Notes under the pieces: generated by a model | What the model saw: the letters and a program-made list of their open reading frames with translations, nothing else | Told to the model about the DNA's origin: nothing | Database searches by the model: none | In this document: piece after piece, positions 9,300-11,090 of the stretch | Layout: each line of letters starts with the position of its first letter | Numbering within the stretch: position 1 is the first letter of the stretch | Program-made: the position numbers and the translations under genes | NCBI GenBank assembly: GCA_014898415.1 | Contig: RCTD01000014.1 | Coordinates: forward strand, 124,001 to 188,000 | Source of the DNA: Stromatinia cepivora | Taxonomy: Eukaryota; Ascomycota; Leotiomycetes; Helotiales; Sclerotiniaceae | Direction: 5' to 3' | DNA: 64,000 nucleotides

Positions 9300-9517
9300 A
9301 CAGTATGATGAAATGATAGCAAAAGCGATAGCTTGTAAATCCCGAACAGATGACCTTGATATATCTTCTTCACGTACATGGCAAGCCAAGTATCGCAATG
9401 AAAATACATGTCCGCAGAAACGAACAGACTAACTTTAATATAAGTTTCCTATATCTTCAAACTGTCAGCGATGCTTCCATCATGAGAAAACAATATGGAC
9501 AATGTAGACAGAAATGA

Positions 9518-9607
9518 AATGTCAGATCAAAGCCTAGTCATAGGCATTTTCATCAATTACCAACGTGTGGATATGTCGACCGTCGTGATAAAATAATCAT
9601 CATGTAA
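9518..9607 (-). ncRNA. snR73: box C/D snoRNA, snR73-like (25S Cm2959 region)
   Basis: Intron 6. C box ATGATGA (complement of 9597-9603), an internal TGATGA-type C' box and D box CTGA (9522-9525). The element after the C box is complementary to GACCGTCGTGA of 25S rRNA (identical to 9578-9588, 11 nt). This is the snR73 target region in the peptidyl-transferase part of 25S. The D' box is poorly defined: CATA as D' would select the first C of GACC (recalled as Cm2959), while TCGA would select a different C. Cluster order favours snR73. Confidence 0.78.
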
Positions 9608-9806
9608 AGGAGTGAAAAGGGTGACAGTATAATGAAGGCAATGCAGTAACATACCATGAGATATATGGCCCACGGTCAGGCAACACCATGCAGTATGATG
9701 TGAGATGATATCAACTTAAGTTAACCTGGCATTACAGTCACGGATCTAAACAATAATCATTAGCAATGGTCATGATTTGAAACCGAAAGTATATAATAGC
9801 ATGAGC

Positions 9807-9886
9807 ATATTCAGTTAAGATAGGCTCGTCACAACCGTGAGGCTTGGACATATGCTTGTCATTTGTCGATCGATGTCATCAGAATG
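9807..9886 (-). ncRNA. snR74: box C/D snoRNA, U27/snR74-like (18S Am28)
   Basis: Intron 5. C box CTGATGA (complement of about 9877-9883) and D box CTGA (9811-9814). The internal antisense element is complementary to CATATGCTTGTC near the 5' end of 18S rRNA (identical to 9849-9860, 12 nt). The D' box must be degenerate (CCAA). The fifth base then pairs with the A of CAUAUG, the classical U27/snR74 methylation site. The guide beside the D box has no target that I recognise. Confidence 0.85.
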
Positions 9887-10048
9887 CTCGAGGGCTGCCG
9901 GGAATGCATGGAAAAAGAGGTTCCTTACCAAAATAGGTTGAAATTAAAGCATCGACCACCGGAGGACTGCAGCGCTTCGAGCATCTAAAAAGGTTGATGT
10001 TAGCACATGCCTTGACATGATACACGTTGAACAATGATTCCTGTCTAA

Positions 10049-10138
10049 AAATTCAGAAGGCATGAATGGTTTAATTTTGATGTTGTCAACATGGAAAACT
10101 CCAATCAGACTCGTCATCTAAAAATGCTCATCATAAAA
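10049..10138 (-). ncRNA. snR75: box C/D snoRNA, snR75-like double guide (25S Gm2288 plus a second site)
   Basis: Intron 4. C box ATGATGA (complement of 10128-10134), D' CTGA (10105-10108) and D CTGA (10053-10056). The D' guide is complementary to CTCGTCATCTAA of 25S (identical to 10110-10121). Its fifth base pairs with the G of CUCG, recalled as Gm2288, the snR75 target. The D-box guide is complementary to GCATGAATGG (10060-10069), about 20 nt downstream in the same rRNA, and points to the C of GCAUG. Two independent matches within one rRNA neighbourhood make this the best-supported guide in the cluster. Confidence 0.88.
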
Positions 10139-10321
10139 AGTATGGAGTGCAAGAGAAAATATTTATTTACCTAAAGCTCATACAGGTGAAGGTATTGGCG
10201 TCCCAGAGTCAATCAAGACCTCGGACACGCAAAGAGCACCCGAGACATCATAACAATCTATGCTTCCAAAATCAGAAACCATACATCAAACATGTGTACA
10301 ACAAATGCTGATAAGATGACT

Positions 10322-10424
10322 GAAATCAGTGGGCGAGGTTTTCTAGGCCTGCCGCAAAATGGCATATCCATCAAGACCAGAACCATTTTGGAACTGTCGG
10401 AGCCCAGTGCCATTCATCATTTTA
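10322..10424 (-). ncRNA. snR76: box C/D snoRNA, snR76-like (25S Cm2197)
   Basis: Intron 3. C box ATGATGA (complement of 10414-10420) and D box CTGA (10326-10329), flanked by AAA/TTT that can pair. Plus-strand 10402-10410 (GCCCAGTGC) equals a 25S segment. With CCGA as D' box, the fifth base pairs with the third C of GCCCAG, the position I recall as yeast Cm2197 (snR76). The match is 9 nt, the shortest clean one, so the assignment leans partly on cluster order. No target was found for the guide next to the D box. Confidence 0.75.
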
Positions 10425-10557
10425 CGCAGTCGCGTGAGGTTGAAAAGTGAGAGGAGAGTTGAGTCGTACCTCTTGATTATTGGGCTCATCTAATCTTAGA
10501 ATAAAGTCAGCATCAAATCAAGAGAAAAAAAAACATCAATTGAAATTGAGTTGGAAG

Positions 10558-10655
10558 AATTTGCTCAGTAACAGCCTTTTTTGTCGTCAAAAGCCCGAGG
10601 ACTTCAGTCGGTAATTTCCAGCGTGCAAAGCACAAACTGATCATCATCACAAATT
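10558..10655 (-). ncRNA. snR77: box C/D snoRNA, snR77-like (18S Um578)
   Basis: Intron 2. C box GTGATGA (complement of 10644-10650), D box CTGA (10565-10568) and a perfect D' CTGA (10604-10607). The ends pair: AATTTG on one side and CAAATT on the other form a six-pair terminal stem. The D' guide pairs with CGGTAATT of 18S rRNA (identical to 10609-10616), after which one extra base interrupts the match before CCAGC. D'+5 points to the U of CGGUAA, recalled as yeast Um578 (human SNORD65 site). Confidence 0.82.
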
Positions 10656-10837
10656 ATATGCAGAGGGGAAGAAAGAAAATAATGAAAAGAAGGGGAGCTT
10701 ACAATTGTAATGGTGGGCCGAAAAGAAAATCAGAAGATTTGTTATAGCAAGTGCAACAAGTATTAATTTGACATCTATCTCAATTGTTAGCAATGATCGA
10801 AGTTATCAAGTTGCTGAAATGAGTAAAATTGTGATCC

Positions 10838-10922
10838 AATATCAGACTGACGTGTTACAAAAGTTTCATGTCCCGTAGGATCAAAGACTCTAGTTTGCGG
10901 TTGTTGTTTTGTCATCACATAA
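10838..10922 (-). ncRNA. snR78: box C/D snoRNA, snR78-like (25S Um2421)
   Basis: Intron 1 of the host gene. C box GTGATGA is the complement of 10912-10918 and D box CTGA of 10842-10845. Plus-strand bases 10886-10897 (GACTCTAGTTTG) are identical to a 25S rRNA stretch, so the minus-strand RNA carries a 12-nt antisense element. With TTGA as degenerate D' box, the fifth paired base is the U of GACU, the site I recall as yeast Um2421, guided by snR78. I found no good terminal stem. Confidence 0.82.
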
Positions 10923-11090
10923 TGAATGAAAAGAAAGAAGATATAGATGCGCTTACCATTGATGATGAATTGAATTGGACTGAGTTGAATCAATCCAATC
11001 CATACTGCAATGAAGTAGAGTTGTTGTGTTGAAGAATAATATTTTGGTGATTGTGCAAGAAGACGCAGAGTTTTGTAGCTCAAAAATTTT

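Follow-up and report, generated by a model that had tools for sequence, protein, structure and literature searches.

The minus strand of positions 9300-11090 in a 64,000-nucleotide stretch of the Stromatinia cepivora genome (contig RCTD01000014.1, positions 124,001 to 188,000; hereafter the window) almost certainly carries the filamentous-ascomycete form of the snR72-78 snoRNA cluster ("cluster I"), organized as a spliced non-coding RNA of the UHG/gas5 type. It contains six GT-AG introns, each with one box C/D snoRNA, and in transcript order the snoRNAs are snR78/72, snR77, snR76, snR75, snR74, and snR73. The boxes, their order, the intron signals, two pairings with 18S rRNA, and a constant spacing are observed at the cluster. 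The host gene and its introns are arranged as follows.

9300..11070, minus strand: putative non-coding snoRNA host gene, six introns and exons; both limits assumed, ends inferred
10775..10956, minus strand: intron 1, 182 nt; GTAAGC ... GCTAAC ... TAG
10490..10702, minus strand: intron 2, 213 nt; GTAAGC ... GCTGAC ... TAG; alternative acceptor at 10495
10258..10469, minus strand: intron 3, 212 nt; GTACGA ... TCTGAT ... TAG; alternative acceptor at 10263
9985..10170, minus strand: intron 4, 186 nt; GTAAAT ... GCTAAC ... TAG
9746..9928, minus strand: intron 5, 183 nt; GTAAGG ... GCTAAT ... TAG
9449..9654, minus strand: intron 6, 206 nt; GTATGT ... GCTGAC ... TAG

All six introns have donors of the form GTA[ACT][AG], CTRAY branch sites, and TAG acceptors, and the internal exons measure 72, 20, 87, 56, and 91 nt. 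Both values agree with the first-pass annotation of this DNA, which had described six minus-strand introns with one box C/D RNA each and exons of 20-91 nt. The donor and acceptor patterns were found at these distances in 0.955% of 20000 random placements, compared with 6/6 snoRNAs, a lenient control because the patterns were fitted to these same six introns. AT starts five of the six exons that follow the cluster introns (10774, 10489, 10257, 9984, and 9745), and three of them start with ATG. A general AG|AT rule for exon starts was rejected, as the stretches after the two acceptors of a second snoRNA host locus (L027, described below) start with AG and GA. The cluster lies tail to tail with a gene for a Zn2Cys6, ARO80-like regulator (approximately 5.4-8.9 kb of the window) and head to head with a fructose-1,6-bisphosphatase gene (from approximately 12136 of the window).

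The longest open reading frame in the joined exons encodes 86 amino acids; its ATG occupies the final three bases of exon 6, and all further codons lie in the last exon. While this frame might suggest a small protein as a further product of the host RNA, such a role is very unlikely: a frame of that length arises in 12.6% of 2000 Markov-1 sequences, the predicted product has no Pfam match and no homologue at E <= 0.001 in a protein database holding Sclerotinia proteins, and the host genes of the Neurospora crassa clusters are described as having short frames only (PMC2780460). As a control for the database, a neighboring protein matched Sclerotinia sclerotiorum at 97% identity. A protein-coding host was therefore rejected, and the earlier statement that the exons contain no protein stands.

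Box C/D RNAs were defined by box C (RUGAUGA) near the 5' end, box D (CUGA) near the 3' end, and an antisense element of 10-21 bp with its target 5 nt upstream of D or D'. TGATGA and CTGA are present in all six cluster RNAs, with a distance of 72-95 nt from C to D; in snR74, a C replaces the R that precedes TGATGA. The six RNAs are located at the following positions.

10838..10922, minus strand: snR78/72-type box C/D snoRNA; box C 10918, box D 10845-10842; ends approximate
10563..10651, minus strand: snR77 homologue; box C 10647, box D 10568-10565; Rfam Afu_300
10324..10424, minus strand: snR76 homologue; box C 10420, box D 10329-10326; Rfam Afu_513
10051..10136, minus strand: snR75 homologue; box C 10134, box D 10056-10053; Rfam snR75
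9803..9889, minus strand: snR74 homologue; box C 9882, box D 9814-9811; stem and 18S match
9522..9609, minus strand: snR73/SNORD35 homologue; box C 9603, box D 9525-9522; Rfam SNORD35

The first-pass annotation had proposed running a snoRNA finder on the minus strand, and the Rfam search placed three of these RNAs above the gathering thresholds and two below, with snR74 absent from its output. The three, for which Afu_513/snR76 scored 98.3 bits, Afu_300/snR77 83.3 bits, and snR75 80.4 bits on the minus strand, were the only matches at gathering thresholds in the whole window. SNORD35/snR73 followed with 33.1 bits (gathering 36, E 8e-5). The first RNA was matched by snoZ122 (28.4 bits) and snR78 (26.7 bits), scores that on their own are at chance level because their E values are 0.43 and 0.5, respectively. 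The snR76 family itself gave 41.6 bits on the snR76 homologue, below its gathering threshold of 55. The snR74 homologue was recognized by its box C, its box D, a 6-bp terminal stem (GAGCAT/ATGCTC) spotted by visual inspection, and 12 bp of complementarity to 18S rRNA.

The assembly yielded no rDNA array: among 1664 candidates for 5.8S, of which 39 were scored, one decayed copy emerged, and an 18S word search with one mismatch allowed returned no match. For this reason, pairing was tested against an rDNA unit deposited under a bacterial record title (L021; 18S complete, most of the 25S reads N), which we take to be S. cerevisiae rDNA, and against five short, assumed 25S segments that stand in for the 25S target sites. 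The decayed 5.8S-like stretch (1501-1626 of L019, G000:C14:18708-18833) scored 38.6 bits, below the family cut-off, and stands alone on the same contig, approximately 105 kb before the window. Eukaryotic rDNA occurs in records titled Blastococcus and Planomonospora (L020 and L021), which probably reflects contamination of those assemblies.

Against the complete 18S, the snR74 guide (9860-9849) forms a 12-bp Watson-Crick match to positions 25-36, a length reached by 8 of 1000 shuffles. Matches of 12 bp to 18S are also present in 25 of 2664 half-overlapping 96-nt segments of the 64 kb, that of snR74 included. As such a match is not rare alone, the identity of snR74 depends jointly on its guide, boxes, stem, place in the series, and intron. 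The snR77 guide (10622-10609) pairs over 8 bp adjoining Um578 (18S 575-582 of L021), followed by one extra A and then the remaining match. Because this extra A breaks the match, the longest run is unremarkable (839 of 1000 shuffles reach 8), and the identity of snR77 rests on Rfam. Equally long 18S matches without known meaning also occur, for example, between snR73 and 18S 956-968 (11/13 Watson-Crick pairs).

On the assumed 25S segments, the snR76 guide (10411-10402) makes 9/10 Watson-Crick pairs at the Cm2197 site, the snR75 D' guide (10121-10110) pairs over 12 bp at the Gm2288 site, and the snR73 guide (9588-9578) over 11 bp at the Cm2959 site. A second element in snR75 (10069-10060, minus strand) pairs over 10 bp with assumed 25S just downstream of the target and is possibly an accessory pairing. 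In snR76, approximately 30 nt up to and through box D (10324-10353, minus strand; GGCAGGCCUAGAAAACCUCGCCCACUGAUU) are nearly identical to the Afu_513 consensus and partially match yeast snR76; this stretch makes no Watson-Crick run longer than 8 with 18S. The D' boxes are degenerate in snR74 (CCAA) and snR73 (CATA), and both were placed by hand to fit the register. With boxes placed in this way, the D/D'+5 rule points snR74 to A28 and snR77 to U578 of 18S. The published yeast assignments are Am28 for snR74, Um578 for snR77, Am876 for snR72, Cm2197 for snR76, Gm2288 for snR75, Um2421 for snR78, and Cm2959 for snR73, as given in PMC5199042. Order and targets thus agree with yeast, because the hand-placed D/D'+5 sites match these assignments. 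Of the matches to 18S or 25S rRNA that the earlier note had claimed for the guides, those of snR74 (12 bp) and snR77 (8 bp plus a bulge) were obtained on real 18S, and those of the other four RNAs (9-12 Watson-Crick pairs for the main guides) on the assumed 25S segments. A U5 target for the D element of snR77, predicted for its N. crassa counterpart CD24 (PMC2780460), was not supported in S. cepivora, where the element makes at most 7 bp with the species' own U5.

The first-pass annotation had given the series as snR78, snR77, snR76, snR75, snR74, and snR73; the order is confirmed, but the first RNA is not a plain snR78, as its D element resembles snR72. Its D' guide (10897-10886) pairs over 12 bp with the assumed 25S Um2421 site, and its D guide (10854-10847) over 8 bp with the assumed 25S Am876 site. 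The snoZ122 model aligned to the D element with a 3-nt UAA insertion. The first RNA would thereby combine a 12-bp snR78 guide with a putative 8-bp snR72 guide that has a 3-nt insertion. A fusion of snR78 and snR72 has been described in all Euascomycetes sampled by Luo et al. 2013 (PMC3596301), and N. crassa CD5 is listed as a double guide for Um2383 and Am856 with 12 bp and, at the snR72 site, 10 bp (Table 1 of PMC2780460). Judged from the DNA, the first RNA appears to be of this snR78/72 double-guide type of filamentous fungi, with a weak snR72 half. As it would be of that type, snR72 seems to be merged with snR78 rather than simply missing.

The genome contains four CACGTCAG..CTGA sites, which is a chance-level count because the reversed pattern gives three. 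At the three sites outside the cluster, the preceding 120 nt contain no TGATGA, so this search, which an snR72 with a changed guide would escape, found no separate snR72. It is conceivable, though somewhat improbable, that the snR72 half is no longer functional and that the 25S Am876 position is unmethylated or served by another RNA. The 8 bp on the assumed rRNA segment and the UAA insertion relative to the snoZ122 consensus are consistent with such a loss, as is the comparison with N. crassa CD5, which is reported to make 10 bp at the snR72 site (PMC2780460). However, box D and the adjoining 8 bp keep the D+5 register, and only the cluster site, among the four genomic ones, has a TGATGA within 120 nt upstream.

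Compared with the rest of the genome, the cluster DNA has one other match, 78% over snR73, at G000:C6:181366-181458 (approximately 1499-1595 of L031, minus strand). This second snR73 copy is located within an intron (GTATGT..CTAAC..CAG) of a gene for a methyltransferase resembling TRM5 (NCBIfam E 2.5e-19, short of the curated cut-off). The copy keeps the TTATCACGACGGTC guide, its box C is weakened (ATGATAT), and its Rfam score as snR73, 31.2 bits, is below gathering. Movement of snoRNA introns from gene to gene has been proposed by Luo et al. (PMC3596301), and the copy would fit as a duplication under that proposal. It adds to the cases in which an intronic snoRNA also occurs in another host gene.

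A second snoRNA host locus, L027 (G000:C22), has matches at 1014-1142, 1501-1607, and 1836-2008. An snR107-like RNA (32.9 bits) and U14 (52.2 bits), both below gathering, precede intron-type acceptors and are followed by a match to the H/ACA RNA snR80 above gathering. For U14, the nearest 5' splice site candidate, GTCAGT, directly follows a possible acceptor, and its assignment is uncertain. The SNORD38 and SNORD24 families had no match in the genome.

In the cluster, 51-58 nt separate box D from the branch A downstream, and 65-75 nt separate it from the 3' splice site. The snR107-like RNA and U14 of L027 have 57 and 56 nt from box D to the branch A, respectively, which places all eight box C/D RNAs within 51-58 nt, and a single CTRAY..YAG occurs within 150 nt in each of the eight tails. 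Among 45 chance C..D pairs drawn from the window and 18 other loci, 10 had any CTRAY..YAG and one had it at 51-58 nt, a range that was taken for this comparison from the eight RNAs themselves. In the ninth box C/D RNA, the snR73 copy of the TRM5-like gene, box D is 50 nt before the branch A. According to a review, the optimum in mammals is approximately 50 nt upstream of the branch point, and Aquarius/IBP160 aids assembly (PMC8162545). The Aquarius N-terminal family was found above its cut-off in the genome as three adjacent pieces, one of which has an internal stop, as expected from an unspliced intron. In Fusarium graminearum, deletion of the debranching enzyme reportedly lowered five other intronic snoRNAs that were tested (PMC9606315). 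Distances from snoRNAs to splice sites were measured by Liu 2009 (PMC2780460); among the papers listed, no fungal report of branch-point spacing was recognized by title or the start of its abstract, and we do not claim that the spacing is unreported.

Taken together, the constant spacing, the Aquarius gene, and the debranching data from Fusarium argue for splicing-coupled assembly, debranching, and trimming as the likely path at the cluster. The host RNA would probably be transcribed by Pol II and spliced, and the introns would be excised as lariats. During the stay of each intron in the spliceosome, its snoRNA would be joined by box C/D proteins; the lariat would then be debranched, and exonucleases would trim it to the protected snoRNP. 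The mature particles would then guide 2'-O-methylation at the yeast-equivalent positions Um2421, Cm2197, Gm2288, and Cm2959 of 25S, Um578 and Am28 of 18S, and perhaps Am876 of 25S.

Alternatively, an RNase III-type cut could free the snoRNAs from an unspliced polycistron, leaving the intron signals as relics. The S. cerevisiae cluster is indeed described as an unspliced transcript (PMC3596301), in agreement with the earlier note of an intronless yeast polycistron. In S. cepivora, however, all six sets of intron signals are intact, the spacing to the branch site is tightly kept in 8/8 RNAs, and splicing of such clusters has been reported in filamentous relatives, which makes a release by cleavage extremely improbable. 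Splicing-coupled release is thus the preferred reading. The spacing of 51-58 nt in all eight RNAs (50 nt in the ninth) and the presence of an Aquarius gene may further mean that filamentous fungi use the position-dependent, splicing-coupled snoRNP assembly of mammals, a pathway that would then date back to the common ancestor of fungi and animals, with Saccharomyces abandoning it on losing these introns; we offer this proposal tentatively, with slightly less than even confidence.

The S. cerevisiae snR72-78 polycistron contains homologous RNAs in the same order and differs in that it is intronless, gives seven separate RNAs, and is reportedly processed by Rat1p and RNase III, a result said to come from work of Qu in 1999. 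Mammalian UHG/gas5-type hosts carry a different set of snoRNAs. Likewise, these hosts are spliced and non-coding, with one snoRNA per intron approximately 50 nt upstream of the branch point (PMC8162545). The closest likeness is to fungal cluster I as described by Luo et al. 2013 (PMC3596301), which is intronic in the Euascomycetes sampled, Sclerotinia sclerotiorum being among the listed species. The members, their order, the intronic snoRNAs, and the non-coding exons are the same, as the snR78/72 fusion appears to be, and no difference from that account was seen in members, order, or intronic state: S. cepivora has the same snoRNA order, with one snoRNA per predicted spliceosomal intron of a non-coding host. 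In N. crassa, CD5, CD24, CD12, CD7, CD21, and CD31 are the homologues of snR78/72, snR77, snR76, snR75, snR74, and snR73, respectively; all six are on chromosome VI and listed as intronic, and clusters I to V are reported as RT-PCR-checked with UHG-like hosts (PMC2780460). CD5 makes 10 bp at the snR72 site compared with 8 bp in S. cepivora. In Exophiala, a spliced transcript contains most of these RNAs. Most fungal snoRNAs are stated to be lone intergenic genes, a general statement that does not concern this cluster (PMC11028025).

The first-pass annotation had placed the novelty in this locus and its detail, a view that does not stand, as the arrangement is already in print for Euascomycetes (PMC3596301). 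The cluster is ordinary because its counterpart has been described in many filamentous fungi; it is real and well formed, and the description of fungal cluster I already explains it, S. cepivora being related to S. sclerotiorum. The intronic state of the snR72-78 cluster gains another well-preserved example, and the constant branch-site spacing gives an easily tested hint that filamentous fungi may couple snoRNP assembly to splicing.
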